Shown piece by piece: positions 33,591 through 53,134 of a DNA stretch of 64,000 nt. Below the pieces are notes generated by a model. That model did not search any database. It was not told the DNA's origin and was given only the letters and a program-made list of their open reading frames with translations. The stretch spans positions 13,509,748 to 13,573,747 of the forward strand of contig JAJEKV010000031.1 of NCBI GenBank assembly GCA_021234155.1, written 5' to 3'. The position numbers and the translations under genes were made by a program. Origin of the DNA: Isoetes taiwanensis. Lineage: Eukaryota; Streptophyta; Lycopodiopsida; Isoetales; Isoetaceae. The first letter of the stretch is position 1. Each line of letters opens with the position of its first letter.

Positions 33591-34395
33591 TCGGTCCGCG
33601 TGTTTGAGGTGTTTCGCTCAATTTTCGGGACGCTCAATTGTTCACGAGTCATTTCATCCCCCCCGCCCCATTGGTTTCACAACTTTCAGCAATATCTTCT
33701 GTTTCCCGGTGCTCTTCCTCCCGCCGATCCGGCGCTCTCTCGAATGAAAAGCTTTCAATGATATATGGCTCCAATATGCCACCGTTAACCTTAAAAATAT
33801 GAGGTTTTGTGACTATACCATGGTCGTTATCACTAGACCATTTGTACAAAAAACGAGGCAAAGACATGGTCCTCCGTCGTTGTGTCCTCCCTCCACGAGG
33901 TGCCCGATATCGTTCGGCTCTTCCCACGGCGGGCTTGGTGGTGGTCATTTTAGTGGTGACAAAAATGTGATCTCATTTTTCCTCTAACGTTTCAAAATTC
34001 TTCACGGCTCTTCCTCCTCCATGGCCCGCTCTTCAAAGATGCCCCGCTTTACGCCGCGCCGTGTGGCGGTATACCATGGTCGCGGGCCGGCGTGTGGGAA
34101 CACCCACGCCCGTGACACTCTTCCATTGGCGTCGATTAAGCCCACGCCCGGACATCCCTTCAAACAAATGGGGTATGGATTTTGTGGGGCCCATGGGACC
34201 GGTAGCGCACACCCGCGTGCGCTATATTCAAATGGGGTCATCACGGATTATGCTACCAAATGGGCGGAAGCTTGTGCACTTCCTGACAACACTGTTGCCA
34301 GCACAGCCAAGGTTCTCTACACGCACATCATCACGCGTTTTGGTTGTCCCACGGAACTTGTTAGTGATCGTGGCGTGCATTTTGTCAACCATACG

Positions 34396-35970
34396 TGGCG
34401 TTCGGCCCGATTATCGGTCCCGAGCATTATCTTTATGATCTTTGCCTAAATCGCAGCGTACGCGCCATTCGACCCGGCGTAATGCGCCGACGGATAGCGG
34501 GTAAAGTAGCCCTAGGGGCAACTTGCTAGGGATGTTCACATGTTATTAATGTGCACATATGCACATTAATGTGGGCACACTTTTCCATGTAGGCATATTT
34601 TGCCACCTAGCCATTAAAGGCAAGTGGGGCCTTTCCAATTATCCCACATGCTAAAATGGGTAATTGGAAACCCTAGCCCTAAACCCCATGTCTATTTAGG
34701 GTAGGAAAACCCTAACTTGCTAGTTTTTAGTCCATAGGGTTTTAGAGCTCTGTTTTGGCTGCCCCGGGAGCCAAAACCGCCTCGAGCGCTGCCTTGGCGA
34801 ATCGCACCATCGGTTTTCTGAATTCGATCAGCTCGCCAGAATGGTTGAACTTCGGTCGGGAGGAGCCACCCAAGGATCGGTATTTGGTCAATTTAATAGC
34901 TCAAATCGTCTTCTAGTCATAGAATCGGTAGGTTTAGCCTATTAAAGCGCCCATAGCGACTATCTAGATCTCTAGATCGGACACTAACTAAAGAACCTAA
35001 CTCTATGTTATAGATTAGATCTAGTTCTTTAGTTCTTCCAATGATGTATATGGATGATGTTTCTCTGTGAACTCCTTGTATTGGGAAGGGGGTAGAGGCC
35101 ACGAAGGCGTGTGTAGTTGATGCTCCTAGAATAGCCTCTCTGAGCACTTGTAGATGCGGCACTGTGCACAAGAGCCACACACTGGTTGTGGGTGAAGGGG
35201 CGAGGCGGCTTATAAGGAGGTTAGGTGTTTCGACTCTTGAGCGATCCCTATGGTGTGTTAGTGCTACAGGGGATCATTGTGACTAGGTCTAATGGCTTGC
35301 CAGCTGCGTGTGGGCAAGGCATGGGCTCGACACTTCGTGAGGTGGTGGATCGACCTTCCATTGAGTTCAAGTCGAATCGAGGCGGTGGCCCTCTAGTCAC
35401 CTTGAGTCAGCATGTAGATCTCTGGAGGGAGTGATCCCTACCTGCCCCATCGGAACTGGGGAGATGAAACCCAGGGATAGCCCTTTTGGCTATGCATCCG
35501 GCGGGCTACAGTCAGGTCCCAACACTTTTCAACCTACTCTGCAAGGTGTGCACAGGAGGGGCGGATGGAGTGGACAACCCTATGCCATGTTCTTATGCCA
35601 GCCAAATTCATTGCCATGAATTCTGTCTGCAATGAACTCTGGAGACCCAAGCCGTCAGTCATCCCCTTGAGTCTGAGGCTTGGGTAGGACCTCCTATGTG
35701 ATGTGCTGATCATTGTGTATGCAGATGTTGATGCACCACCCTTCTGGGTGGTTGGAGGATTATGTTGTATACTGACATGTATGTTTACGCTTCTGCAACT
35801 AGGTAGGCCCTGAGGGAGACAGGGTAGAATGACACCTTCACTCTTCCCACTGGGACTCGTTACGGGTGCAGTGATATGTGGAGGGCCCTGTATCAGTGTG
35901 GAGCTGGTATGGGGGAAGAACTCCTGTTTGTATACGGTGCGGGCACCATATGCGAGTAGGGGACGTCACA
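34396..35970 (+). repeat. 5' LTR of the inner chromovirus
   Basis: 1575 bp, starts TGGCGTTCGG (3' copy: TGATGTTCCAG) and ends GGACGTCACA. From ~35420 to 35970 it is nearly identical to the 3' copy. From 34396 to ~35420 it differs at many sites, mostly where one copy has CG and the other CAG, CTG or CCAG. Open frames within it (for example 35431-35619) are repeated in the 3' LTR and are not genes. Confidence 0.92.
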
Positions 35971-35971
35971 G

Positions 35972-35987
35972 TGGTATCAGAGCAATG
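35972..35987 (+). other. Primer-binding site, tRNA-iMet type
   Basis: TGGTATCAGAGCAATG begins one base after the LTR. Its first 12 bases equal the standard plant tRNA-iMet primer site. Confidence 0.95.
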
Positions 35988-36175
35988 TTCTTGGAGACCA
36001 AGAGCAAAGCACTGGCCACCGCTCCCAGTAGTACTAACTTGATAGGATCCTCAAGCCTCGAAAAGTGGGAAAAATTTTTCTCATTTTTGTAGTTTATGCT
36101 AAGCTAGTAACAATTAAGTGAATTGGAACTTAATAAGACTAAAAAGAATGAGCCAAAAACTTTCCAAGTGAGGTG

Positions 36176-36242
36176 GTCTCACAGCTCGCGCCTGGTCGAA
36201 GAACTAAATTTTAGTTTTTGAGCGAGGCGCAAGCTGTGAGAC
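36176..36242. repeat. 67-bp palindrome, copy A
   Basis: The left arm GTCTCACAGCTCGCGCC pairs with the right arm GGCGCAAGCTGTGAGAC with one mismatch. The centre GAACTAAATTTTAGTTTTT extends the stem. Near-identical copies are at 38058-38124 and 38259-38325, with a half-decayed one at 36366-36432. It lies ~360 bp upstream of the TATA box of the histone-like ORF. Confidence 0.9.
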
Positions 36243-36365
36243 ATCGAGCCAAGATCACCAAAACATGATGAATTTGGGAAAAGTAATAAGGTAAGGCTAG
36301 TTCTAAGGTAGGAATTAATTAGAATAACATGTTTTAATTACCTAAACAACCTAGAAATGTATGAG

Positions 36366-36432
36366 ATCTCACACCTTTACTTTGGTCTAAAAACTAAACT
36401 TTAGTTTTTGAGCGAGGCGCAAGCTGTGAGAC
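36366..36432. repeat. 67-bp palindrome, copy B (left arm decayed)
   Basis: The right arm and centre (ACTAAACTTTAGTTTTTGAG and GGCGCAAGCTGTGAGAC) are intact. The left arm has drifted to GATCTCACACCTTTAC, so the stem is weak. Spacing from copy A is 190 bp start to start, comparable with the 201 bp between copies C and D. Confidence 0.8.
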
Positions 36433-36533
36433 CAATAAATAGGAAAAGTCTGAAATAAGTGTAAATTTTAATTAAATAGGTGCCTTAGCATGTTAAATAG
36501 AGCAACTTGAATTTTGACCTAAAATTTCCCAAG

Positions 36534-36543
36534 CTATAAATAG
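36534..36543 (+). promoter_or_regulatory. TATA box upstream of the histone-H3-like ORF
   Basis: CTATAAATAG lies 101 bp before the ATG at 36644, which would put a start site near 36565 and a leader of ~80 nt. The same ten bases and a similar following CCCTCATT occur before the second accessory gene at 38502. Confidence 0.65.
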
Positions 36544-36643
36544 ATGTAGACCCCCCTCATTTCCACGTCCCAGCCCTAGAAATCCGCTCTCCCGCACTTA
36601 GGCGATCTTTGGGCGCTTATATCCGATCGACGATCCGTAAAAT

Positions 36644-37804
36644 ATGGCCCGAACCAAACAGACCGCCAGGAAGCGTCGCCCAGGCGAAACCACCAGCGCC
36701 ACAGATGCTGATATCATTCGGCAGATGCTTCGCGAGAGGCTCGCAAAAGGGGGTCGTTCGCCTTCGAGCGAGGAAGACATCTCAGAAGAGCAGGACACAT
36801 CCGATCTGATTGATGTCTTCAATCAGCAGGTGGAGCAGGACGAGGCCACATCACCAACCTCCATGGATGAGGAGACAAGGGAGGTGTACGAGGAAATAGA
36901 GCGGGAGATCAGGCAGCAGGAAAGAGCAGAAGACCATTCTGATGCAGCCACGGAGATCCTCGGGGACGAGAACCAGGCGGCAGGACTTGAACCAGCAGAG
37001 GAATCAGATCTCGCGAGGTTCATTAAGAAATATGAACGCCGGGAGAAGAAGAGGGAAGACAAAAAGAGGAAGAGGGAAGAGGAAGAACAGAAGGCAGCCG
37101 AAGAGAAGAGGAAGGCGAAGGGGAAATTCGTGGACGGCCCAAGGAAGTTGAAGGACGTCCCACCCAGGAGAAAGCCTAACCCTAAGGTCGTCATCAAAGA
37201 GCGGCAAGCCGACCAACCTCCGAACTTCTCCGACGAATCTTCCGACGAGGACTTCAACCCCAATACTGGAGGTGGAAGCTCTTCCAAACCCCCAGGCGAA
37301 GAGCAGGTAGTACCTGAGCAGCCAGCGCCAGAGCAGACCCAGCAGGATGAAGTGCAGAAGCCCCCTGAGTACCCAGCTTGGGATAGGAAGAAACAGCCAA
37401 GGCCTGCCCGAGAAGCCTACGTCATCGACAAGGTCAAGATATATGAAAGGAAGATGAGGGAGCACGAGGCGTATATGAAGAAGTGGGAGGCATACAGTAA
37501 GTACTACGAAGAACACAGGGTTGCATTCGTCGAGGGAGGGCGACCAACGAAGCAACAGACCTTAAAGCCGCCGCCACCAAAGCCCAAGGCTCCCAAGCCA
37601 CCACCAAAGAAGAAGATCGACAGGAAGGAGGTGGAGAGGAGAGCGCTGAGGGAGATTAGGCACTTCCAGCGCAGCTACGGTCTTCTAATCCCCCGTGCCC
37701 CCTTTGCTCGGTTAGATCGAGAAGTGATGCAGCCCTGGGGGGCGGACTTCGTGGTCCGACGAGGGCGGCTGGCGGCAATGCAGAAGCGGCTGAAGCAAAA
37801 ATAG
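36644..37804 (+). CDS. Histone H3/CENH3-like accessory protein of an LTR retrotransposon
   Basis: An intact 386-codon ORF from ATG 36644 to TAG 37802-37804. Residues 1-10 (MARTKQTARK) equal the start of histone H3, then diverge (RRPGETTS). Residues ~54-106 are acidic. Residues ~127-165 are a Lys/Arg/Glu-rich likely coiled coil. Residues ~258-290 (YERKMREHEAYMKKWEAY) form another helical stretch, and ~306-325 are poly-Pro/Lys. Residues 333-386 align without gaps to H3 from the alpha-N helix: RALREIRHFQRSYGLLIPRA, then PFARLDREVMQPWGADF. Eighteen of the first 31 positions equal canonical H3 by eye. HFQ and LLIP resemble plant CENH3. The ORF stops inside helix alpha-2, so a complete fold is missing. 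It could bind chromatin or H3-tail readers, or assist centromeric targeting; these are inferences. Its own TATA box and palindromes suggest separate transcription. Confidence 0.8.
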   Translation: MARTKQTARKRRPGETTSATDADIIRQMLRERLAKGGRSPSSEEDISEEQDTSDLIDVFNQQVEQDEATSPTSMDEETREVYEEIEREIRQQERAEDHSDAATEILGDENQAAGLEPAEESDLARFIKKYERREKKREDKKRKREEEEQKAAEEKRKAKGKFVDGPRKLKDVPPRRKPNPKVVIKERQADQPPNFSDESSDEDFNPNTGGGSSSKPPGEEQVVPEQPAPEQTQQDEVQKPPEYPAWDRKKQPRPAREAYVIDKVKIYERKMREHEAYMKKWEAYSKYYEEHRVAFVEGGRPTKQQTLKPPPPKPKAPKPPPKKKIDRKEVERRALREIRHFQRSYGLLIPRAPFARLDREVMQPWGADFVVRRGRLAAMQKRLKQK

Positions 37805-38057
37805 TGCAACACCGAAGATTCAACAGCTTTGCTTTGTTCCGCCTGTTTAGTAACCCTCATGCGACAAGACATGAGTCTTGCGAGCCGCATAAAGGGAGAA
37901 CGCCCTTAGAATCTTTTTTTTGTAAATAATTGAAAATTTTGTAATATAGAGCAATTTTGTGTACTTTAATTGCCTGAACTTGATTAATTAGGACAAGTTA
38001 GTAAGTTTTAGCTTTTATTTCAGCAAAATAGGGCATTTGCAGGCCGAAAGGCGTGAT
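37805..38057 (+). other. Probable 3' UTR of the histone-like ORF
   Basis: AT-rich sequence after the stop includes TGTAAATAATTGAAAATTTT and TGTAATATAG near 37920-37945, plausible plant far-upstream and polyadenylation elements. It supports an independent transcript but is not proof. Confidence 0.4.
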
Positions 38058-38124
38058 GTCTCACAGCTCGCGCCTGGTCAAGAAACTAAATTTTAGTTTT
38101 TGAGCGAGGCGCAAGCTGTGAGAC
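38058..38124. repeat. 67-bp palindrome, copy C
   Basis: Same arms as copy A, with the centre AAGAAACTAAATTTTAGTTT. It is followed by a tandem triplet of TTGCCCAAAAC-type units at 38125-38160. Confidence 0.9.
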
Positions 38125-38258
38125 CTTGCCCAAAACTTGCCCAAAACTTGCCCAAATTGACCAAATAAGGGGTCCATTCTATCTGATTTGATGAGCCCAT
38201 CATCTTTTCACCCTTAGTTTACCCAAATTGGACATGTTTTGATCAAAATGGGACTGAT

Positions 38259-38325
38259 GTCTCACAGCTCGCGCCTGGTCGAAGAACTAAACTTTAGTTT
38301 TTGAGCGAGGCGCAAGCTGTGAGAC
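38259..38325. repeat. 67-bp palindrome, copy D
   Basis: Nearly identical to copy A, with centre GAAGAACTAAACTTTAGTTT. Both C and D are preceded by GATGTCTCAC, while the bases after the right arm differ. It lies ~176 bp upstream of the second TATA box. Confidence 0.9.
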
Positions 38326-38501
38326 CTCCTACAATTTCTTCCAAACCATCTTCAACCTGTTGTATAGCATCCTTTTGTAATCCAACCATGTTCAAACACT
38401 TGAGCTAGTCTTCAAATTCCCATTTTGACCTCAGTATAGGCTAGGATTACCCAACCTCAGGAATTTTCCAAGTCATCCAAAAATTAGGGTTTCCCCCTTT
38501 T

Positions 38502-38511
38502 CTATAAATAG
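38502..38511 (+). promoter_or_regulatory. TATA box upstream of the second accessory gene
   Basis: CTATAAATAG lies 114 bp before the ATG at 38625. The downstream GGTCCCTCATTCCTC resembles the sequence after the first TATA box. This supports a duplicated promoter design. Confidence 0.65.
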
Positions 38512-38624
38512 GTCCCTCATTCCTCAAATAGCACCCTACAAGTCTGCTCCTTTTGCTTTCGACCCGATTTCCCAACTCCCCGAGGCTCTTGCAAACCGTT
38601 TGATACCCTCTTTCCAATTAACCA

Positions 38625-40143
38625 ATGGCAACCTCGATTTTTGCGGATGGTGCAGCGCCCAACGCTCATCTTCGCCGAGGCCGACATCGACCAAATCTTC
38701 CATATCTTCAGGAAGGAGGTAGATGTCCAAGCAACCTTGCACGCAACTCCAGCTTACAGTAGAGTCTTGTCTGAGTTCCAAGCTAGGGTAGAACCAGCAC
38801 TAGTGCAGCTCCCCCCTTGCGTAGGGTACTTTGTTCCTAGGCAATCCCTGCAAGCAGCCTTAGGCGATGTTCCAAACATTGCCAAGTACCTGACAAACAA
38901 AGCGCAGCGCACGCCCGAGCCAATGGTCCTAACTGTCAATAGGACCAAATATTTCTCTTTTAACACTGCCTTGGCAATCTTTCTTACCCACCGTGCCGAG
39001 AACACCGTGGGGAACCTCCATTCCCCATGGACGTGGACCCATTAGCCATAGCAAGCAGAGCAGCGGCTCCTTACGCAATATGAGCAGGGCGAGGAAGGAA
39101 AAGAAGAGGACCCGAGGAGGAAGCGAGAATCGGAGGGAAGAGGAAGACTACGTCGAGCTCGACCCAGCAGAGGAGCGGCGACAAGCAGAACAAGAGTGGC
39201 AGGACTTCGAGAGAAGCCGGCAAACTCTTAGAGTCGCGCCACCCCTTGGGCTAGGCATTACAAGCCTAGCCCCCATTATTGTCGGCGCAGGAGTTTTCGC
39301 TTCTGTTTACATCCAAAACCTCCGGAGCGTGGAAAGGGAGTCTGAGACCGAAGAGTTGCCGCACTAACCCGGAAGAACGGACTCGATGACTTCATCGTCA
39401 GGAGGAGCATCCGACTTCCCCCCAAGTAAGGGAAGCCGACACTTACACGCGGGAGAGTCGACCTCCGACATCCAAGCCTCTGAAAACATCGCCAGACAAG
39501 GCCGAGAACAAACTACCGACGGAGGAAGAGTTCCTTGCTCTACAGGAACAGATGGGGATCCGCTATGCGACCTCGAACATCCTAACCAAGCTCTTTCAAA
39601 GCACACCCCCGTGAGAGAAGAGGAAGCGACCTGGGGAGGGCCAAAGAAATCCGAGACTACAGGGAGCTCACCACGGTCGAGGTTGATGATTTTGCGGGCA
39701 GACATAGAGCTGGATACCGAGTGGCCGAGGACCCATCTCGCAACGACAGGTCGTTGCGGTACTACCTTCCCCTGCTGATGGATGGAAGAATAGCGGTAAT
39801 TCACCGCAAATTTACCCCCAGAGGCGAGGAAGGAGTATCGATGCTAATTGCACTCTCAGGATTCGGCCGGCATGCGCGGTTGCCCCTCAACACCGAGTAT
39901 GCCATCCTGGTGAAGAGAGCGGTAGCACTCGATGTTTTCGACTTCGCCATACCTTACAGGAGGCAGGGAAGACTGGCGGTGACCGCAGCTTATACCTCCG
40001 ACCGCAGAGTGGAAGACTTGGCGAGAGCTTTGCAGGGCGGATCTTCAGCCAACGTCCTTAGGAACTTGGGTCATTCAGTGGGAACAGCCCAAGTGAAAAA
40101 GTTCCTAGAGGATAATCCATCCTATCGGCAGCATCAAGAATAA
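38625..40143 (+). pseudogene. Second accessory gene of the chromovirus, frame-shifted, unknown family
   Basis: Protein-like segments change frame several times. ATG 38625 opens MATSIFADGAAP. The better frame from 38647 continues (IFAEADIDQIFHIFRKEVDV to FSFNTALAIFLTHRAEN). 39080-39367 is charged and then strongly hydrophobic (LGLGITSLAPIIVGAGVFAS), a likely membrane segment. 39500-39610 reads TEEEFLALQEQMGIRYATSN. 39640-40143 reads YYLPLLMDGRIAVIHRKF, LIALSGFGRHARLPLNTEYA and so on to TAA at 40141. I recognise no family. Its place between the histone-like ORF and gag, with its own TATA box and palindrome pair, suggests a second acquired gene, or two genes. The breaks indicate it is no longer functional in this copy. 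Confidence 0.55.
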
Positions 40144-40318
40144 TTAGCAGTCTTGATCCCGAAAGTTTTAATTTTGTATTAGCATATTATAAAACATGAA
40201 TATAATTTCTTTTGCACTATAAATGTTTTGTTGATGTATTTTGTGTCCCCAACTATACTAACAAACATAAATAATGCAAGAGAACAAGTAAAACTAACTG
40301 TATAGCCATGAACTACTT
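40144..40318 (+). other. Intergenic spacer before gag
   Basis: AT-rich spacer that may hold the end of the accessory transcript. CACTATAAATG near 40217 is a further TATA-like motif that could serve gag, but the context is weak. Confidence 0.35.
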
Positions 40319-41777
40319 GTGTATGCAACTAGAGGCCTAAGCTCAGGGGAACGACAACGCCGAGAACATATGGAAGAACAGAGTCTGCCCAGGCCACGTC
40401 CGGCAAGGAACCTGCGCGAAGAATTTGGACCCATGACCCCAGAAGAAGAATTATCCCAGATGAGGACGGACCTAGGCTTTGCTAGCCGCACAAGCAGGAG
40501 CAGGTTCGGTGGGTAACGCTCAACTGCCGCAAGCATCAGCTCGGAAAACAGGAAGAGACAAGAAGAGGAGCAAGAGAGGAAGGTCCCCCAGCTCGGACTC
40601 CTCCGACTCAAGCTCAGATTCAGACTCCGATTCCGAGGAAGAAGAAGAGCAGAACCAAGACCGAACAGATGAAAGGCAAAGGAACACCCCGGACGGACGA
40701 CTAAGGGACACAAGAACCTCCGACTACCAGAAGAAAGTAGACTCTGCATTGGGAAATGTTTGGAAGGCCAGGAAGCTCGAGCAATTCTCAGGCGAGAATA
40801 GGTCAGGCATGGAGGCGGAAGCTTGGCTTGACGAGATGAGCGAATATGGCGACGCCTATGGTATGAAGGATAAGGATAAAGGTAGGGTGGCAACAGCGAA
40901 CCTGAAGGGAGCAGCACGCATTTGGTGGAAGGGTTATGCCAAGGCTCATGGCTTAAGCAGGGATGCTTGCAGGTTCAAGAAGTTTGCTAAAGCCTTCAAG
41001 CGCCATTACGTTCCAAGAGAGCACAAGTCCAGCATGATGCAGCAGTTCTACAAGTTGCAGCAAGGCAACAAGTCAGTCCAGAAATATACAGAGGAATTCA
41101 TGAGACTGAGGTTGTATGTGCCAAAGTTAGGTGAGAAGCATGCAGTAGAAAGCTACATTGAAGGTCTGAATGAGGAGATCCGCAATAGAACAGTATCAGA
41201 AGCGGAGTCCAAGGCAATAAGCTTGCAAGGAACGGGACCTCAGAATAGCGGGCAGAGGTAGCAATATTAGCAGGACAAAGGCAAGGCAGCAGGCAGTTTT
41301 AGCCCGAGGATAGCCAGCCCGGGACCAGCTAGAGCCCCATATAGTGGCAATCAGGGGAAGCAGCAGGAGAAGAAGCAGGTGTCCTTCAAAGACAAGCAGG
41401 AAGGGTCAAACTACTCCAAAGCAGTGCGGTCCTTTTTGCAGGCCATGCCCAAGGAAAAGAGACAGGAGTGCATAGAAAAGCAGCTTTGCTTCAGGTGCTT
41501 CCAGCCAGGCCATAGGACAGCGAACTGCCCATACGTCATGAGTGCAGCGCTAGCAGAGTTGGGAGATTGGGACACTCTGTCTGACGACGACGGCGAGGAA
41601 GCCCGCGACTACATTCAGGGTGAGTGTCATATCTTTGCCGCAATAGATACAGAGCAAGCAGAGAGCCAGTATAAGGTAATTTCCACAGTAGGGAAGGCCA
41701 AGACCAAGTCATTCATAGTCCTGATAGACTCGGGAAGTAGCATAACTTTGCATCCCCCAGAATGGTTCAAATGTTGA
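40319..41777 (+). pseudogene. Gag of the inner chromovirus
   Basis: The N-terminal part reads in one frame to ~40510 (EHMEEQSLPRPRPARNLREE), then in a second frame from ~40480. A Ser/Asp/Glu-rich stretch near 40590-40660 is followed by the retrotransposon Gag domain (LEQFSGENRSGMEAEAWLDE, then LKGAARIWWKGYAK). A TAG at 41259-41261 interrupts, and the same frame continues to one CCHC zinc knuckle (CFRCFQPGHRTANC near 41489-41530). It would form the particle shell and bind RNA. No ATG is clearly placed for its start. One frameshift and one stop make it defective. Confidence 0.8.
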
Positions 41778-42250
41778 AGTTGAAACCACTAAAGTCAAAG
41801 CCAAGGCCCGTTGTCTTAGCAAGTGGAGCAGTAAGGCAGACGGCAGGTAAGAGAATCAACTTCGACATCGACTTGCCAGGGATTAATATCCAGATGGGGG
41901 CAGAGGTAATGGGCATTGGCAATTACGACTTGATCATAGGTATGGAGTACCTTGGACCAGCAGGGGCCATTATTGATTGTGGAAAGCGAAAGGTGACCTT
42001 CCCAACACCCGACGGCAAGATCATTGAGATCACAGGTAAAGAAGTTGTTCCCATCATGCAGTGTATGTCTTCTAAACGGCTGTTCAAGTGCATCAAGAGT
42101 GAGCAAGTAGCATTCATCTTCAAGCTTGAGATTGAAGAGCCAGAGTTAGAGGAAAGTGAAGAAGATAAAGTGCTCAACAAGTTGCCCAAGCAGATAGCTA
42201 GCTTGATCACGGAGTTCCACGATCTCTTTCCTGATGAGATCGAGCACCTC
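41640..42250 (+). pseudogene. Aspartic protease region of the inner chromovirus
   Basis: IVLIDSGSSITLHPPEW at ~41716-41766 contains the DSGSS active site. After a frame change near 41765 the frame reads NYDLIIGMEYLGPAGA near 41922-41970, the usual second protease motif. It then continues into the pol linker (LITEFHDLFPDEIEHL) up to the solo LTR at 42251. The reading frame is the same on the far side of that insertion. Confidence 0.8.
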
Positions 42251-43898
42251 TGTGACGCTCCCTGCTAAATATACGGCGCCCGGCCGTACACTCGGCAGGA
42301 AATCCCCCATCCGGTCCATCAACCGCATGGGCCCTCCGTCTAACCCGCACTCTGAGAGAATCCTAGTGCGGGCAGGGGACACGAAGGTGTCTTGCGCGCC
42401 CTTCCCCTATGGGCTCCTATCACAGCGGAAGCATAAACAACGTCAGAACTAGCAATAACAATACAACATACTACCTCGAAGGGTAGTCCATCACATATCC
42501 ACAACTGCAAAGAAGATAATCCTATGCCATAAAACATAAGAGCTCCTACCCATGGCTCAGACTCATAAGGAGGGTGGACCGATCGGCTAGGCCTCAAGAT
42601 AGAGCGGACCGAGTCATAACAATGGCGAGGGCTGGCATAAGACAATGGCTAGGGTTGACCACTCCATCGCCCCCCCTGTGCATACTTTGCGGATGGGCTC
42701 AATCGGGCTCGGCATGACTCTAGCCTTCCTGGGATCACGTAATCCCATGGCATCACCCATCGGGACTACTCTGTGTTGCATCTCCCTGGTCCGTCCGAGG
42801 CAGGAAGGGTTGCATCTCCCCTTCCGGGGTCTAGAGGTTCCGGTGGCGGCTAGAGAATCGGGCGACACACGATTCATACCCGGTGAACCCCCAAAACAAG
42901 AGCCAAGCCGACACTTGCGGCTCTTGAGAGGCGTGGCGACACCATCGCCCCTGGGAGGTGTCGGACCCATGCTCGGCCCGCACAGTGACCGACCATAAGC
43001 CTAGCCCACTATGGGATCCCAGTAGTAGCCCCCTTTCGGCGGGGATCCTCCCTCCGCATTGCCTCTAGCCCCGTTGTGTAGTGCTGAGTCACATCATAGC
43101 CTCCATAGCCCGGTGGGTTCCTATGCACAGGCCGCAACTAATAGGAACTAAGGGATCTACTCTAGGAGCATACTACATATGGCCCTAGGTCTCTACCCCC
43201 CTTCCCAATACAAGAGGAGCAACATGATCAACCATCATCACATAATCATCATATCATGAGAATAATCATAAGAAGAACATCTTAACCTAATCATACAAAT
43301 CTAACTAATGGTTAGGGTTCATTGATTAGGGTTCAAGATGATGCATGAGGGTTCTAGGATGGCTCTACCCTAGATACAAGATACAAACTCATCTGGAATG
43401 TTAATTCCAGATGAACTACTATGACTACTACTCTACATACCTGCTCCTGAAGCACTCCCTCCCAATCCTGGCGTCTCCATGGTCTTCGAAGTGTTCGAGG
43501 TAGCTCCCACTCCTGCTGATGCGCCCACGCTCCGGGGGCTGCTGTGCTAGGCTATGCCACAGCAGACGGTTCTCGAAACGGAGTTTCGAGCGCGAAGAAG
43601 GTTCCCAGATTGTTGGAGCCAGAAAAGAGGCCTAGGGTTAGGGTTTAGGCCTTTATAGGTTAGGGTTCACATGTTTTGCCACGTGGCTCCAATAGGATAA
43701 GACCGTGTGGCGGGTGCCCAATAGGTTAAGGCCACGTGGAAAATGGTCTTAACCTAAGGTTGGCTAAGTTATATGAATAACTTAGTCATGCCCCCTAGTG
43801 CCACAATCTATGGTATACAAGGCTATGAAGATAGACTTGTATAGTGACGGGTCCAGGAATATACGTATTTATAGCGTATATTCCCCTGGAACGTCACA
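42251..43898 (-). mobile_element. Solo LTR, minus orientation, inserted in pol
   Basis: The ends TGTGACG and CGTCACA are inverted and the flanks are ACCTC on both sides (42246-42250 and 43899-43903). The complement begins TGTGACGTTCCAGGGG, similar to the start of the chromovirus LTR (TGATGTTCCAGCACAG). It shares internal phrases such as the TTGTATTGGGAAGGGGG/GTAGAG region (near 43190-43215). It is therefore an LTR of a related family reduced to a single copy by recombination. No genes inside; short open frames are incidental. Confidence 0.88.
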
Positions 43899-43903
43899 AC
43901 CTC

Positions 43904-46750
43904 CCTCCTTACAGGGGAGTCGAGTGCGAGATAGCACTCGAACCGGGAACAAAGCCGACAAGCAAGGCTCCATATAGAATGACAACGCAGGAGTTGTCGG
44001 AGCTAAAGAAGCAGTTGCAGGAGCTGCTCGACCTAGGTTTCATTAGACCTAGTGTCTCGCCATTTGGAGCGCCCATTCTCTTCGTTAAGAAGAAGGATAG
44101 TAGTTTAAGGATGTGCATAGACTATAGGCAGTTGAATAAGCACACCACTAAGAACAAGTATGCGCTCCCAAGATCAGATGACTTGATGGATCAGCTACAA
44201 GGAGCAAGGATCTTCTCCAAAATCGACTTAAGGTCAGGTTATCATCAGATCCGGATAAAGGAAGAAGATATCCATAAAACCGCCTTCAGGACGTGGTATG
44301 GGAATTATGAGTTCACGGTAATGCCTTTCGGCTCATCAAATGCCCCCGTGACGTTCATGAGGCTCATGAACGATATCTTCAGGGAGTTCCTAGACACCTT
44401 TGTGATTGTTTTCTTTGATGACATTTTGGTGTATAGCAGATCCCTTGAAGAGCATGTACAACACTTGAGAAGAGTGCTGGAGAAGTTGAGGAGGCACCAG
44501 TTATACGCCAAGTTGTCGAAGTGCCACTTCGCAACGGAGAAGGTGGAATACCTTGGTCATGTGATCTCAGCAGAAGGCATCTCGACGGATCCCACCAAGA
44601 TTGAAGCAGTAATTTACTCGAAGAATGTGCATGAGGTCAGGAGCTTTCTCGGGCTAGCAGAATACTATAGGAAGTTCGTAAAGAACTTTGCTAAGATAGC
44701 GGCCCCGTTAACAGACCTGACGAGGGCAGAGAAGGTGAAAGATTGGGCAGAGCATTGGCACAAGAAAGCCCAAAAGGTATTTGAATTGTTGAAAGAAGCT
44801 CTGACGACAGCCCCTGTCTTGACCCTGCCGGACTCGGAAAAAGACAAGTTTGTAGCAACAGATGCGAGTAAGATAGCTACAGGTGCAGTGCTTATGCAAG
44901 AAGAGCGTGTGGTAGCGTATGACTCCAGGAAGATGAACGACGCCGAAACGCGCTACCCCACGCATGATCAGGAATTGCTTGCGGTTGTCAGGGCGTTAAG
45001 AATATGGAGGCACTATCTCTTGGGAAGGAAGTTCCAATTGGATACCGACCATCAGAGCCTCCAGTATGTATTCACGCAACCACACCTCAATCTGAGGCAG
45101 CGAAGGTGGATGGAGTTCCTCGAGGAATATGACTTTGAGATAGTCTACAAGCCGGGGAAACTCAATGTGGTAGCGGATGCGCTTTCAAGGCACCCCCTGA
45201 CAACTAGAGTGCATTGCAATGCAATTTCAACGCTCTCCAGCAACTTTGGTAAGAAGATTGAAGAGACCTTGCCAACGGATGTGGATTTCAGGGAAGTATG
45301 GGCAAGCCTCTCCAAGAAGGCTAGAACAGATAAAGAGTGGGAAGCCTTCAAGCATTATAAGAAGGAGGGCAACCTGTTATATCATAAGAACAAGTTGTGC
45401 GTACCCGAATCATCAGGTGTAAGGAAATTGATCCTCCATGACACGCACAACAGCCCAATAGCTGGCCATGCGGGATTCATGAAAACATATTTCAAAGTGC
45501 GCAGCAGCTATTATTGGCCAGGAATGAAGAAGCAAGTAGCTCGCTACATCAGGGAATGTCAGCTATGCCAGCAGACGAAGGCGGAGCAGCTTCGAATTCC
45601 AGGGGCATTAGAGCCATTAGCGGTGCCAAACGCTAAGTGGGAGGTAATCAGCATGGATTTTATAACAGGGTTCCCAAGAATGGTAAGAGGGAAGGATGCC
45701 TTGATGATAGTGGTCGACAAGTTGTCGAAGATGGCACATTTTGTGCCTTGCGGGACCACAGATACAGCTATGGATACAGCAAAGCTCTTCACCAAAGAGA
45801 TCTTCAGGCTTCATGGTATGCCAAGGGAGATTATATCCGACAGGGACCCGAAGTTCATGAGTGCATTTTGGCAAGACCTCTTTGCGACGATTCAGACCAA
45901 GCTATCCATGAGCACGGCATATCATCCTCAGACGGATGGCCAAACGGAGCGGACCAACAGGATTTTAGAAGACATGCTACGAAACTATGTCTGGAATAAG
46001 CAAGGTATGTGGGAAGAGTTTATTCACTTGGTGGAGTTTGCATACAATAGCACCAAGCAGGAATCATCCCAAATGTCGCCGTTTATGATTAATTACGGCT
46101 ATCAGTGCCTAATTCCAGACACTTGGCACAACCCCGTGTCAAAAGTGGAAGTTTCGCAGCAGATGTTGGCCGATATGCAGCAGCTTGTGGAAGAGGTTCG
46201 AGGCTATCTGCTAGCAGCAAGAAGTCGACAAAAGAGCATCGCCGACAAACATCGAACAGTCAGAGAGTTCAAAGTTGGAGACGATGTTTGGCTCAAGATC
46301 AAAGTGAAGCAGGCGAAGCTCAGGATCGGAAATTGTAAGAAGCTTGCTCCAAGGTGGGCTGGACCTTTCAGAATAGTCAAGAGACTAGGTAATCAAGCCT
46401 ACAAACTAGACTTGCCAGCACACCTAAAGATTCATAAGGTCTTCCACGTGAGTTTGTTGAAGAAGCATACTCCAAATCCAGACGAAGTCTTGGACACTCC
46501 AACGTTGTTGGAAATGACAGAAGAGGAGTTGGAGATAGTCCCAGAATTGATTCTTGATAAAGCTTTCAAGAAAACGAGGAGATCAGAATTCCTCCAGTAT
46601 GTGGTCAAGTGGAAAGACTTGCCAGTGGAAGACGCGACATGGGTACTTAAGAAAGATTTAGTTAAGCAGTACCCACAGTTTATGGAGCAATGGGACGGCA
46701 AGGTCATCTCCGAAGAAATCGGCTCAGGCATGTCGATTTGTGTAGATTAA
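43904..46750 (+). CDS. RT, RNase H, integrase and chromodomain of the inner chromovirus
   Basis: An uninterrupted frame (open from 43844 but native only after the solo LTR) carries all downstream Pol domains. RT has [27 protein letters not shown] and the FFDD active site near 44411. RNase H has [14 protein letters not shown] and [11 protein letters not shown]. The integrase zinc domain has [11 protein letters not shown] and CQLCQQTK. The core triad is intact: MDFITGF near 45655, SDRDPKF near 45836 and GQTERTNR near 45940. The GPY/F module is [12 protein letters not shown]. At the C-terminus a chromodomain ([19 protein letters not shown]) lies near 46590-46655. Chromodomains on chromoviral integrases can direct insertion to marked chromatin. 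The enzymatic part looks intact, but Gag and protease breaks and the solo LTR prevent expression as one polyprotein. Confidence 0.92.
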
Positions 46751-47606
46751 TTCTTGTGTAGTTAAGATTAATCCACGCATGCCACCTATGCTAGGTATGG
46801 GTCGCATGCGTTGTTACCGATGATGGGACCACTACGGTGATCTCTAGGGCGTGGTGTAATGTTAATGTAGGCATGACCGCGTTTCCGCTTGGATGAGTGG
46901 AAGGTAGATTAGAAAGTCTACTTCTGTCCCACGGAAGTAGATGACCTCGAGAGAAAGGAGGTCATTAAGGAATGCATTGATAGGAAAGGCACCTTTAGCC
47001 CCATATATGCTTTGATAGGAGGAATCTATCCTTCACGCCCCCCACGCGGGAAGGATATCCTCCACGCTGGGCAACTAGAGGTGTAGGCATGAGCGGCATA
47101 TAGGCATATAGGCGCTGTCTCCACGGCCATTATGGAAGATTCATCCTCTTCTTAGCCATGCATTCATGTAGATAGGTGGGGTGGTCACCATATAACCAAA
47201 ATTTATTAAATAATTAAAATGGTACTAACGTAGTATCGACCTGCAGGCCAATAGAGCGCTCCGGAGGGCAAGGAGGTCGAGCTACGAAGACTTGCAACAC
47301 AAATTTTGTTGGAATGTGTTGCAAGGAACGAAGAGTACCTCGAACAATAATTATAGATATGAAATATTGAAATTTTGTCTAACTTAATGTCATAATAACT
47401 AAGATAGTGAATAACTTGTTTAATGATGTTATGAATTGATAAGTATTCCATAGTATGATGACGTAATAATGTTCTAAAAATATTACCTTAGGGTAATCTT
47501 GGTAAATGTATAAGTATTATATTGTATGCATCACGTTGATTGCAGATTGCAGATTAGGAAGATCCCAAGGTGGGGAGACCCACGATGCTGCGGACAGCAT
47601 CATTTC
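46751..47606 (+). other. 3' untranslated region of the inner chromovirus
   Basis: Follows the pol stop up to the polypurine tract. It has no credible ORF. A CGCCCCCCACGCG-rich patch near 47034-47050 and an AT-rich part from 47340 are the only notable composition changes. AGGTGGGGAGA occurs at ~47569 as well as at the true tract. Confidence 0.5.
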
Positions 47607-47621
47607 AAGGTGGGGAGAATG
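47607..47621 (+). other. Polypurine tract
   Basis: AAGGTGGGGAGAATG directly precedes the 3' LTR start. A second similar tract sits ~40 bp upstream. Confidence 0.85.
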
Positions 47622-49186
47622 TGATGTTCCAGCACAGTATACGGTCCCAGAACATATACTGTACTGCCTCATCACGCGTACACGCCACTCCGACCGACGT
47701 GTACGCCGACGGATAGCCAGGTAAGTAGCCCTAGGGGCAACTTGCTAGGGATGTTCACATGTTATTAATGTGCACATATGCACATTAATGTGGGCACACT
47801 TTTCCATGTAGGCATATTTTGCCACCTAGCCATTAAAGGCAAGTGGGGCCTGCTCAATTATCCCACATGCTAAAATGGGTAATTGGAAACCCTAGCCCTA
47901 AACCCCATGTCTATTTAGGGTAAAACCCTAACTTGCTAGTTTTCGTCCATAGGGTTTTAGAGCTCTGTTTTGGCTGCCCCAGGAGCCAAAACCGCCTCCC
48001 AGACGCTGCCCAAGCGAATCGCACCATCAGTTTTCCTGAATTCGATCAGCTCAGCAGAATGGTTGAACTCAGGTCAGGAGGAGCCACCCAAGGATCAGGT
48101 ATTTGGTCAATTTAATAGCTTAAACCGTCTTCTAGTCATAGAATCAGTAGGTTTAGCCTATTAAATTGCCCATAGCAGCTATCTAGATCTCTAGATCCCA
48201 GACACTAACTAAAGAACCTAACTCTATGTTATAGATTAGATCTAGTTCTTTAGTTCTTCTGTGATGTATATGGACGATGTTTCTCTGTGAACTCCTTGTA
48301 TTGGGAAGGGGGGTAGAGGCCCTGAAGCTGTGTAGTTGATGCTCCTAGAATAGCCTCTCTAGCACACTGTAGATGCGGCCTGTGCACAAGAGCCACACCT
48401 GGTTGTGGGTGAAGGGGCCAGACTGGCTTATAAGGAGGTTCGTGTTCTGACTCTTGAACGATCCCTATGGTGTGTTAGTGCTACCGGGGATCATTGTGAC
48501 TAGGTCTAATGGCTTGCCACTGCGTGTGGGCAAGGCATGGGCTCGACACTCGTGAGGTGGTGGATACGACCTTCCATTGAGTTCAAGTCGAATACGGGCA
48601 GTGGCCCTCTAGTCACCTTGAGTCAGCATGTAGATCTCTGGAGGGAGTGATCCCTACCTGCCCCATCGGAACTGGGGAGATGAAACCCAGGGATAGCCCT
48701 TTTGGCTATGCATCCGGCGGGCTACAGTCAGGTCCCAACACTTTTCAACCTACTCTGCAAGGTGTGCACAGGAGGGGCGGATGGAGTGGACAACCCTATG
48801 CCATGTTCTTATGCCAGCCAAATCCATTGCCATGAATTCTGTCTACAATGAACTCTGGAGACCCAAGCCGTCAGTCATCCCCTTGAGTCTGAGCCTTGGG
48901 TAGGACCTCCTATGTGATGTGCTGATCATTGTGTATGCAGATATTGATGCACCACCCTTCTGGGTGGTTGGAGGATTATGTTGTATACTGACATGTATGT
49001 TTACGCTTCCGCAGCTAGGTAGGCCCTGAGGGAGACATGGTAGAATGACACCTTCACTCTTCCCACTGGGACTCGTTACGGGTGCAGTGATATGTGGAGG
49101 GCCCTGTATCAGTGTGGAGCTGGTATGGGGGAAGAACTCATGTTTGTATACGGTGCGGGCACCGTATGCGAGTAGGGGACGTCACA
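47622..49186 (+). repeat. 3' LTR of the inner chromovirus
   Basis: 1565 bp, starts TGATGTTCCAG and ends GACGTCACA, followed by target duplication ATACC. Compare the 5' copy for the uneven divergence. Confidence 0.92.
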
Positions 49187-50018
49187 ATACCATTAAGGCG
49201 CTGACGGATTATCTTCACATCCAACACCGGAAGAGTACACCCTATTATCCTCAAGGAAATGGCTTGGCTGAAAGTACCAACAAAACACTTATCACAGTTC
49301 TCAAGAAAATTTGTGAGCTTCACGCACAGATTGGCAGGAAAAGTTGCCTACTGTTCTTTGGGCTTACAACACTAGTTTCAAAATAGCTACTGGTACACTC
49401 CTTTCAAACTGGTTTATGGTCAAGAAGCTCTCATGCCTTTTGAATATATTCTTCCAACTCTCCGTTTTCAACTTGCTACCAGCCATAATCCCTCTGCTGC
49501 ACTCAAGGAAAGGGTTTATCAATTGGAACAATTGGATGAACTTCGGCGCGATGCTTACATTCGTGTTCTTCATGGACAACGGTTGCAGAAATCATTGCAT
49601 GACAAACGACTTAAGACAAAAACATTCACAGAAGGCGATTTGGTTCTTCTTTATGATTCTCGTTACAAAAATTTTCCGGGCAAGTTAAAGTTTCGATGGC
49701 TTGGTCCTTATCAAATTGTTCAAGTGGTGCAACCCAGCGCTTTCAAGCTGGCTGAATTAGATGGCACTCCATTACCTACACTGGTTAATGGCTTTCGCCT
49801 CAAACAATTTCATACAACAGAAAGTGACAATCATCCACCAGATGCTGTTCCAGACACAGACACAACAGATAGTGACTAACAAGCGGCATATTTATATTAT
49901 AGAGGTGAAATTTTTACAAAATGTGAGCAGAGCCCATCTATTTTCCGCTATGGGCAGAGCCCTATTTACAAAAACGGGCTGAGAGCCCTATCTACTAAAT
50001 CCTAAGGAGAAAAACCCT

Positions 50019-50323: not shown

Positions 50324-50807
50324 CCAACCGAGGACCTCCCTGTCGACGTGGACCAATCAGAAAATTTGCCAACGTGTTTGCAATGCAAGGCTCTTTCTAA
50401 TTCCAGAATCTTTCTCCCGCCGCATATCTAGCCATGGTACCTTCTGACACCTTCGTTTTAATGATATCTCACTTCGAGTTGCCAGCATTAAATGACATTC
50501 CTTCTTTTCACGCCTAATGTGCGTCCTTTTGCCAGCTGTCACATCCGATCATTCTCTCACGTCTCATCTCCACCGTTCCTTGCTTCTCCCTTTACCGTTT
50601 GGGGACTTAGCCAAAATTTTGCCTTTCAATCGCCCACTTAGCATCTGTCGCCACCTGGCATCATCCACGGTTGCTGGTTTGCCCTCATCATGCCCCTTCG
50701 CCTGCACTTGCGCGCCCTAAAACCTTTTCGTCTATCTGCGCCTTCATCTTCTGTTCTCTGCTCTCCGCCTTCTCCAGACACTTCCTTCTGTTCCGACGCT
50801 CTTCGCC
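50324..50807. other. Spacer between antisense promoter and third ORF
   Basis: Pyrimidine-rich towards its right end (50580-50800), resembling a leader for the downstream ORF. No gene supported. Confidence 0.4.
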
Positions 50808-53134
50808 ATGGCTGCACCCAAATTTCCTACTCTTCAAGCTTCTGCTCCAAGGGATGCGACTCTTTTCGAGTCTGTGTCTTTCTCGACGACCACCTTTCGC
50901 GAGGCCCTTGTTGGTCCGAGTCGGGAAGTAGCGGAACACCAGAAGCTTTATGAATTCTCCCAAATGGAGCTCCCGGCCCCAAATCTGGAGCAATTGAAGC
51001 AGTTCGTCGCTCACATCGTCAACAGCCCAGAAGGCCTTGCTACGGTGGTCGATGGCACCACCATTTTACTTACTCAGCCTTTGATTTCTGAGGTATTCCG
51101 TATTCCTTTGCAAAAACCTTCTGTCTCTTGGGCTGCTTTACAGGACATGGACGTCACTCAGTTTGGTGCTCCTGCTTATCAAGCCAACCAGCATCGCCTC
51201 ACAAATATTGCCAAGTCACATGACAATTTTGTGAAGTTTCTGTGGCACAAATTGCTTGGGTATTCCATAAGGCTCAGCTCCAAACCACAATTCAGGACTT
51301 GTTGGAGCAAAACCAGACAAAAGACACCCTCCTGGGTGACAAGGAGAAAGATATTGCTAAGCTCGACACCTTGTACACGGAGCTTTCTCACCAATACCGC
51401 ACTCAAGTTCATGACCTCACTGAGCGTGACGCTAGACTCACCTCCCTTGAAGCTCAGATTTCCACGCTGACAAATCAGTTAACGTCCATCCAGACTCAGC
51501 TTTCGGAGGCTCAGAAATAGAAGGTCATCGATGACGCAGAGATTGCCACGCTTCGTCTCAATACTCCAGGGCAATCCTCTTCACATGCCACGCTTCCTAT
51601 TAAACGGGTCCGTGATCAGTCCCGTCTTTTGTTAGAAAAGGAGAATCGGATCCGTGACCTTGAACATCAGCTCCAGCAAGCAGTTCAATCGGCTGAAGAA
51701 GCCCAAAACAAACAGGAGGGATATATCGACATTGCTACCAACATCCCTGTGGACTTCTCTACTCCTTCCAGCTATCTTGACTATGTGGTGGCCCAACGAC
51801 ACCTTTTTATTTTGAAGTGGTACGCGGCCAATGGCAATGTTCATCAACAGCCATTCAAAAGTGCGGATTTCCTTCGGATCTGGCCGGATCTCTCTGTGGA
51901 AGACAAGGGTTTATTTTGTGCACTCTTAGTCTTTGATCAGCTCAATTCTGACGACCCCGATTTGGTCACTTTCCGTGTTGTTCAGCCAATGGCTTATGTT
52001 TTTCATGACTTCTACCTGGCGGATCTCCATGATAAATTCCGAGATGAGGCCCATTGTGTTTTTCGAGGCAACTCCAATGCTGCTTGGTTGTTATCATCAA
52101 CCAACCCATATTTCAAGGATCCTGCTCAGTCTCAGACTTTTGAACAGGAGTACATGCCTGAACTTGCTCAGCACTTACCTCTGTGGCAGGCTGAAACATT
52201 GGAACAGGTAAACAAAAATTTGGCGCATCCTAATGATCTTGAGTTCGCCCAGATTTATATGCAGCACTTGGGAGGCTACAATCAACTCCGTGGCCTTCTG
52301 GAAAGCAAGACCATCCCAACGGGTTGGGTAAATCCTCCTGTATATCAATTACTCTCTACTTCAGAGTGGGACCATTGGTGTCGTGCTCTTGATCAGAATC
52401 TTGTGCGAGCATTCCGGGACATGGCTTTGCAACCCACGCATACGGGCCTGCTTCCCTATCTATATGCTTCCTTAGGAGTCCCTCCACGCCCACGGTTCCT
52501 CTCTTCTGACTGGCGTCTTCCCTTTTGGACGAAGGTCATGGATGGTCACGCTGGGTCGACTCCGCCTCAGATCTCGACGGATCTTCGGTGGGATCCCCGA
52601 TTTGTCAGACGCTCCAATTGGGAGGATAATGCCACCTTGGACACTACTGAGAATTGGCTTTATATCGCTAATGAGCGTGGTTGGCAACGGCCTGCTGATG
52701 CTCTGCATGGCCTTGATACCTTCTTGCAGAATGCCGCCACCTTCCGTCCACCGTCAAGCTGGTTTCTGTGCTGCTCTCAAATGCATCCTGGTCAGCTCTT
52801 TAAATCAGCAGCGTCCAATCTTTTACTGCAATTCGAATGCCAGCGTCAGTGCTTTCGGTCTCCAGACCTGCCTTCTCATGGAGTGCCAGTTTGTTCCTTC
52901 AAACGCACATGCTGCCCTGGAAGACATGGTGCGCTCTCACTTCCTCATTGATGCCGATCCTGCCCTTGGGCTCAACACTCCTGACGCCCTTCAAACACGC
53001 CAGGACCTCATTGCTCATTACCATAATGGCGCCCGTCCTCATTCCCGTGAGGATCACTTTCCGACTGCTGGTTTCCCGCCCTCGGAAGCACTTCCTCCTT
53101 TTCTTCAAACTGAGTGTCGTTTGGTGGGGGGGAG
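50808..53134 (+). pseudogene. Third ORF of the outer Tat-like element
   Basis: ATG 50808 (context GCCATGG) opens MAAPKFPTLQASAP. The N-terminal ~150 residues contain LKQFVAHIVNSPEG and ILLTQPLISEVFRIPL, reminiscent of the plant mobile domain found in plant transposons. A frame change near 51240 leads into a long coiled coil (LTSLEAQISTLTNQLTSIQT). A TAG at 51518-51520 is followed in frame by more coiled coil (NRIRDLEHQLQQAVQSAEE) and a large C-terminal domain to ~52760 (FLRIWPDLSVEDKGLFCALL). The last ~120 residues read in another frame and end in the 3' LTR. Total ~770 residues. Tat/Athila elements often carry an extra ORF here (called env-like in Athila); I see no signal peptide or membrane segment. 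Role unknown; two frame changes and one stop disable it. Confidence 0.65.
53121..53134 (+). other. Polypurine tract of the outer element
   Basis: TTGGTGGGGGGGAG abuts the TG of the 3' LTR. Confidence 0.85.

Follow-up and report, generated by a model that had tools for sequence, protein, structure and literature searches.

Histone H3 genes within transposable elements (TEs) have been described in fungi. According to the published accounts, a hAT DNA transposon of Pyrenophora tritici-repentis carries an H3-like gene in 26 very similar copies, for which expressed sequence tags exist (PMC3538342), and in Pseudocercospora fijiensis, as in five further fungal genomes, hAT elements captured and amplified the host H3 (PMC6710886). 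Here we analyzed a 64,000-nucleotide stretch of the Isoetes taiwanensis genome (contig JAJEKV010000031.1, positions 13,509,748 to 13,573,747; termed the window), in which a 14.8-kb long terminal repeat (LTR) retrotransposon (34396-49186) carries an H3-like accessory gene, termed H3L. As read from its sequence, H3L is a multi-copy gene of a chromovirus (a Ty3/Gypsy element with a chromodomain) that encodes a whole H3 fold behind an ARTKQTARK tail tip, has a TATA motif of its own and is under purifying selection.

The locus resembles the P. tritici-repentis case, as far as that account describes it, in being a multi-copy H3-like gene of a TE with insertions in the N-terminal tail, in adjoining an open reading frame (ORF) of unknown function and in being neither full H3 nor CenH3 (PMC3538342). 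It differs from the fungal hAT element in that the carrier is an LTR retrotransposon, the copies are deeply diverged and under purifying selection, a linker of about 320 residues is present, the gene has its own TATA and hairpin modules, and a second H3-bearing lineage exists. The P. fijiensis copies are reported to be all inactivated by repeat-induced point mutation (RIP; PMC6710886), whereas many copies are open here. Plant LTR retrotransposons with additional ORFs likewise carry accessory genes beside gag-pol, some of them nuclear, but these lie mostly between pol and the 3' LTR, whereas here they precede gag and one of them encodes an H3 (PMC7264820). The antisense ORFs of this kind are described as having no clear similarity to known proteins, and the word histone is absent from the main text of that review (PMC7264820) as well as of a plant gene-capture review. 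Plant group II chromodomain chromoviruses share the arrangement of pol into reverse transcriptase (RT), RNase H (RH), integrase (IN) and chromodomain, but no H3 accessory gene is described for them in the available parts of the account (PMC3350952).

Judged by titles and the beginnings of abstracts, no LTR retrotransposon with an H3 gene was found in the open-licence PMC literature, a scope that leaves most subscription papers and preprints outside and does not show absence from print. Compared with the fungal hAT captures, a histone under purifying selection in an LTR retrotransposon has a strong claim to surprise. Core histones are usually seen as a property of the host with which transposons live; here an H3 has been kept through deep divergence and in two versions of its tail.

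The H3-like gene and its genomic copies

The window copy of H3L comprises the following features:
36644..37804, + strand: H3-like accessory gene (H3L), open here for 386 codons (ORF, Pfam)
36644..36673, + strand: MARTKQTARK codons, identical to the H3 N-terminus including the Met (compared with the H3 of P0002)
36674..37639, + strand: linker of about 320 residues (charge count)
37640..37909, + strand: histone H3 fold (alpha-N through to the C-terminal end of H3), cut in the window copy by a TAG at 37802
37743..37836, + strand: damaged loop 1/alpha-2 stretch, partly in another frame, with approximate limits

An earlier reading made from the letters alone (the sequence-only reading) had described an intact ORF beginning like H3 and ending with 54 H3 residues. 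The ORF and its MARTKQTARK start are as described, and the C-terminal part is statistically H3: the Pfam Histone profile matched residues 308-381 with its N-terminal part only (E 6.7e-8; 33.3 bits, cut-off 26.4), and the best match in the Protein Data Bank (PDB) was H3.8 (E 4.1e-7). In between, residues 11-130 form an acidic stretch (net -20), followed by basic and proline-rich residues 131-330 (net +14). The 54 residues, though matching H3, do not constitute a natural end of the protein, as complete copies carry the whole fold. Searching the window with H3 by tblastn yielded one strong match (62 bits, E 8e-15), whose alignment crosses the stop and proceeds to the H3 end. In the same frame after the TAG, 37805-37909 aligned to H3 106-135 (Met counted) with a local score of 62, compared with best scores of 39 among 2000 shuffles and of 44 among 1644 other 34-residue windows of the element; for four further H3 relatives, 0, 0, 0 and 3 (P0008) of 2000 shuffles reached the score. 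Reading the TAG as X raised the Pfam match to 39.6 bits, now reaching the profile end, with a best PDB match of 3.9e-13. Against homology beyond the stop stands that the 34-residue piece alone has no histone match in Pfam.

The middle of alpha-2 (about 37743-37836) lies in another frame: allowing frame changes improved the score for four of five reference histones, not for P0011, and none of 60 shuffles reached it for each of the three references tried. The fold stretch of the window copy differs from a complete copy at 25 positions in the worst 100 columns and at 2-15 elsewhere. With H3 homology passing the TAG and alpha-2 out of frame in its middle, the window copy is, by these alignments, a broken copy of a gene encoding a whole H3 fold, and other genomic copies bear this damage reading out. 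A short histone mimic with 54 fold residues was rejected, as the fold runs past the stop and is whole in complete copies.

We refer to the copies of the window-type gene as family A. The same genome, with 1,658,258,908 bases, holds H3L in at least 107 scored places (117 rows, ten of them second pieces of one gene), with long matches 58-100% identical and many open frames of 400-490 aa. Forty of these places were fetched, chosen mostly for coverage and open frames. A complete ORF, defined by the start MA[RQ]TK, a length of at least 400 aa and the presence of VTLMR or VILMR, was obtained for 24 of them (403-451 aa), the other 16 being cut, frame-shifted or differing in their start. Further copies with a conserved ORF, as envisaged in the sequence-only reading, thus exist in number; they keep both H3-like ends, and the histone profile match is significant. 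For complete copy L009 the Pfam Histone match amounted to 98.2 bits, extending to the profile end, together with a PDB H3 match of E 2.9e-26, and for L054 to 96.0 bits (cut-off 26.4). The fold has exactly the length of H3 in 19 of the 24 complete copies.

Selection was assessed by pairwise Nei-Gojobori comparison of the 24 copies (276 pairs, synonymous divergence dS filtered to 0.05-1.5). The median ratio of nonsynonymous to synonymous divergence (dN/dS) was 0.10 for the fold (262 pairs), 0.22 for the linker (218 pairs) and 0.25 for residues 1-35 (250 pairs), at median dS values of 0.68, 0.92 and 0.72, respectively. Column conservation among the same copies was 0.98 for residues 1-10, 0.67-0.85 for parts of the linker and 0.93 for the fold. 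Over residues 1-15, differences per site came to 0.31 at third codon positions, compared with 0.06 at first and 0.05 at second positions, and because third positions vary far more, the tail tip is kept as protein. Purifying selection, which had been put forward as a check on the gene, is thus found on the H3L protein in family A, and likewise on the H3-fold protein of a second family, family B, described below.

Twelve residues (R49, R52, R69, R72, R83, C110, H113, K115, V117, D123, L126 and I130) are invariant in all 19 family-A folds of H3 length, with R116 and T118 retained in 18/19. Among these kept residues we count the arginines that make the main DNA contacts and the H113-D123 pair through which two H3 copies touch. 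Judged by these positions, the family-A fold looks able to enter nucleosomes.

Family B and the histone class of H3L

Canonical H3 recovered 15 canonical genes at 96-98% identity and at least 135 further places at 71-86%. The query was taken from a Nymphaea record, and of the canonical genes four lie on contig C1025 and two on C445. All six of the 71-86% places that were fetched are ORFs of 407-418 aa with an H3 fold and no MARTK start, which we term family B. An unrelated N-terminal domain of about 300 residues precedes the fold. The fold is 84% identical to H3 in the two copies measured, has H3 length in 6/6 copies and keeps in 6/6 all the H3 residues named above for family A; L058 reached 140.8 bits with Pfam Histone and E 2.2e-52 in the PDB. 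The median dN/dS was 0.05 for the fold and 0.12 for the N-terminal part (6 copies, 15 pairs). A search with L061 returned at least 100 family-B rows, 65 of them without stops among the matches listed. Taken together, the genome offers at least 200 natural H3-fusion genes for measuring constraint on the H3 fold.

In two family-B contexts, a partial LTR of about 155 nt, which resembles the LTR of the window element at 80-82%, occurs together with a primer binding site (PBS), the H3-fold ORF and a second ORF, the latter with 34% identity over about 58 residues to the second accessory gene of the window element (aORF2). Downstream of these, L063 has gag (56-59%), protease and pol (64%); in L064, gag, protease and pol were not found within its 9.8 kb, and TATAAATA was not found in either of the two contexts. 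Because LTR piece, PBS, H3-fold ORF and second ORF occur in both contexts and gag-pol in one of them, family B is, by gene content, a chromovirus related to family A whose genes are arranged alike, with an H3-fold gene at the same position. Homology between the family-B N-terminal domain and aORF2 was considered and is not supported (hhalign probability 0.2).

Over their full length the folds of the two families can be aligned (43% identity across 151 columns; hhalign E 4.8e-26). A tree of 21 rows, which included 10 of the 24 family-A copies, placed A and B in separate groups that are not sisters, with weak deep support; they may derive from one capture followed by unequal divergence or from two captures.

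A passive passenger, with a captured piece of H3 carried from copy to copy but serving no function, would be in line with the broken window copy and with P. fijiensis, where the hAT-captured H3 copies are reported as all inactivated by RIP (PMC6710886). Median dN/dS values of 0.05-0.25 at median dS of 0.3-0.9, an H3 gene at the same position in two diverged lineages and a conserved TATA motif argue against such a passenger, which we disfavour and consider hardly credible.

The matches point very strongly to an H3-class protein: the 60 best PDB matches listed for the complete family-A copy L009 are all H3 chains. A longer or altered loop 1 is a feature of CENH3. As the fold has exactly H3 length in 19/24 family-A and 6/6 family-B copies, no longer loop 1 of the CENH3 type is found. 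The idea of a captured H3/CENH3 gene reshaped by insertion, put forward by the sequence-only reading, is supported for an H3-type gene with about 320 residues inserted after the tail tip, but not for a CENH3 protein; the captured parent may have been either H3 or CENH3. The tree does not place H3L: family A lies beside P0009 with weak support (84/73) and long branches, among rows that include no named CENH3.

Family-A folds carry LLIPRAPFARL and VTLMRQD, and we take LLIP.APF.RL and VTLMR to be plant CENH3-like. Of the relatives from outside the genome, P0008 scores best with family A, and it shares parts of these motifs, as does P0009. Found in public contigs, P0008 is an H3 of 130 aa whose tail is canonical and whose fold contains LLIPRAPFARL and AAEAKMV. 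A protein search with 8000 candidates listed yielded no close relative of H3L but six proteins, all with whole H3 domains; further protein searches gave none among 67 and four weaker H3 relatives among 43, and scans of viral contigs for relatives led nowhere.

The two motifs enter into the main rival explanation, targeting to centromeres or heterochromatin, in which H3L is a CENH3-like variant steering integration or the intasome into H3L-marked or centromeric chromatin. Besides the motifs and their partial sharing by P0008 and P0009, the chromodomain in pol would fit centromere targeting, as would CENH3-directed integration of a plant retrotransposon, reportedly described by Tsukahara in 2025. 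Such targeting is nevertheless unlikely, given the H3 length of 19/24 family-A folds, which hence have no longer loop 1, the exclusively H3 chains among the 60 PDB rows listed and the 84% identity of family B to canonical H3.

A possible role in element chromatin

Silencing of elements in plants works through histone-tail marks. In family A, the H3-specific tail begins with MARTKQTARK, followed by the long linker that replaces K14 to K36; family B lacks MARTKQTARK in 6/6 copies and loses the whole tail including K4 and K9. We lean, with somewhat more confidence than doubt, toward H3L being a nucleosome-competent H3 variant and a working part of the element. A host H3-class gene would have been captured by the element via RNA (mRNA), as suggested by the lack of an intron in the ORF. 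The encoded protein may pair with host H4 and become incorporated into nucleosomes on the element's own DNA. Family-A nucleosomes would then be unable to bear the usual K27/K36 marks and those of family B any ordinary H3-tail mark, and the chromatin of the element could be kept from silencing either in cis or by titration of H3-tail enzymes and chaperones.

We propose this anti-silencing role because both families keep the fold yet lose the modifiable tail, and the simplest explanation of a kept fold and a changed tail would be a histone that joins chromatin yet escapes the usual marking. Among possible functions of H3L, anti-silencing is the likeliest, though we hold it distinctly short of even. 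With similar reserve we suggest that the element uses its own nucleosomal H3 with a replaced tail to build unmarkable chromatin on its copies, which would make these elements the first LTR retrotransposons to encode a histone as a working part of the element. If the product enters nucleosomes, it would show, as an experiment of nature, which portions of the H3 tail are required for silencing, and it would represent a new kind of transposon counter-defence. VANC is a protein to which H3L may be compared in this respect, presumably not a histone and presumably belonging to a DNA transposon. H3L may work like this TE-encoded anti-silencing protein of the VANDAL transposons (PMC5735166).

A histone mimic that acts without nucleosome assembly would use tip and fold as a lure that diverts H3 readers, K4/K9 methyltransferases or histone chaperones. 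The tip is conserved as protein, and the long charged linker could hold it away from a nucleosome. A decoy tail, however, could do without a fold, whereas in H3L it is the fold that is under the strongest constraint (dN/dS 0.10) and that keeps the presumed contacts to DNA and to the second H3, and family B has a fold but no tail tip; altogether, we regard a pure decoy as quite improbable.

Several observations weigh against the nucleosomal variant that we favour. Five of the 24 family-A folds are shorter or longer than H3, and several copies have altered ends. Family A differs from H3 at positions 53, 63, 64, 65, 84, 85 and 128 and keeps R129 in 14/19 folds, and because of this divergence pairing with H4 is not certain. 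The structure model of the read-through fold, made from the broken window copy, is poor (AlphaFold pLDDT 53), and Foldseek found no histone with it (best E 7.5). The family-A medians of dN/dS, including the 0.10 of the fold, derive from pairs that are not independent and from copies picked for open frames, a choice that disfavours stops but does not select against missense changes. K4 and K9 are retained in family A and could still be methylated. Finally, the case for anti-silencing relies only on the features missing from the tails and on general biological knowledge, and H4 pairing, incorporation, location and effect on silencing are inferred steps.

Element organization, control modules and the second accessory gene

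Around H3L, the element comprises the following features:
34396..35970, + strand: 5' LTR (TG...CA; self-alignment, ends read in the sequence)
35972..35983, + strand: primer binding site TGGTATCAGAGC (sequence)
36176..36243, no strand: 68-nt hairpin copy 1, upstream of the H3 gene (repeat family D2; RNA fold z -9.5)
36366..36433, no strand: 68-nt hairpin copy 2, partly degraded (repeat; z -3.9)
36534..36543, + strand: TATA-like motif CTATAAATAG, 110 nt before the ATG of the H3 gene
38058..38125, no strand: 68-nt hairpin copy 3, upstream of the second accessory gene (z -9.8)
38259..38326, no strand: 68-nt hairpin copy 4 (z -9.0)
38502..38511, + strand: TATA-like motif CTATAAATAG before the second accessory gene
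38625..40143, + strand: second accessory gene (aORF2), broken in the window
40476..41777, + strand: gag (PF03732), then a same-frame region behind stops with a weak CCHC match below cut-off
41741..42268, + strand: protease part of pol (RVP_2 18.2 bits, just under the cut-off of 20.3)
43835..46750, + strand: pol with RT, RNase H, integrase and chromodomain (Pfam)
47620..49186, + strand: 3' LTR (self-alignment)

Gag, RT, RH, IN and a C-terminal chromodomain were all found between the LTRs, and the protease (PR) at sub-threshold level only. The chromodomain occupies residues 899-951 of the ORF starting at 43844 and has W45, with Y24 and Y48 absent by eye. Because pol contains RT, RNase H, integrase and chromodomain and gag belongs to PF03732, the element is, on these domain matches, a chromovirus, in agreement with the setting that the sequence-only reading had assigned to the H3-type gene. 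The PBS TGGTATCAGAGC presumably matches the initiator tRNA-Met, and TGGTATCAGAG is also present in 7/8 family-A and 2/2 family-B contexts.

The element sits within the integrase gene of another Ty3-type element, whose reading frame continues across the join, and is flanked by a 5-bp target duplicate with one mismatch (ATACG at 34391-34395, ATACC at 49187-49191). This outer element (28629-53728) has LTRs that are 97.6% identical and a 712-aa gag-like ORF; its ORFs after pol (50721-52951) gave no convincing Pfam match. Between protease and RT, about 1.5 kb (42270-43830) contain reverse-orientation stretches about 75% like the element's own LTR, probably an inserted related LTR, and the window copy of the element is therefore not intact.

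By self-alignment, the LTR pair of the H3 element is 94.4% identical, compared with 97.6% for the outer element that hosts it. When set against three other copies, the window 5' LTR stood apart in 89 of 106 discordant columns; the greater difference of the inner pair probably reflects local damage or sequencing error in the window 5' LTR. Positions 34456-35400 of this LTR hold clustered substitutions and indels, many of them at CG/CNG; the 3' LTR and the three other copies lack most of these changes, which may represent damage, hypermutation or read errors at methylated sites. CG or CNG was touched by 32 of 44 discordant LTR clusters, compared with 11.6 expected from random placement, a control that favours this result since a change may itself make a motif. 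The odd 5' LTR and the excess of differences in the fold render the base-level quality of the window copy doubtful.

The motif CTATAAATAG occurs in the window only at 36534 and 38502, with 0.12 matches expected. Among the 40 fetched copies, 23 had a start found by pattern, and 21 of these carry CTATAAATA 105-120 nt before the ATG. All eight ten-kb family-A contexts show the same order of hairpin(s), CTATAAATA, H3 gene, hairpin(s), CTATAAATA and second accessory gene, with exactly two CTATAAATA per context (8/8). PBS and gag were each found in 7/8, and in 6/8 an LTR match precedes the gene, L050 and L052 being without the LTR match and L050 also without gag and PBS. Since TATA motif and hairpins repeat before each accessory gene, each of the two seems to be transcribed on its own, from a control module that the element carries twice. 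Similar 68-nt hairpins, paired upstream of both accessory genes, recur in eight other contexts; a search of Rfam gave no match.

The position of the H3 gene between the 5' LTR and gag, upstream of gag in the seven of eight contexts that have gag in reach, would also suit a role in the particle, with H3L condensing or binding the RNA or cDNA of the element through its basic linker and fold. Packaging of this kind would require conservation of neither H113 and D123 nor a methylatable tail tip, and the gene has its own TATA motif instead of being fused to gag, which makes this function very improbable.

The second accessory gene gave no Pfam domain for the one copy searched, and an AlphaFold model of part of it reached pLDDT 36. 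An RPB6-like domain was rejected as unsupported (E 0.27 with a single sequence, 0.86 with an 8-sequence profile; no Pfam match). The gene is open, with 508-515 aa, in eight other copies picked for that property (for example L049:2141-3685), its dN/dS of 0.13 (28 pairs) marks purifying selection, and its C-terminal part is present in at least 150 places of the genome.
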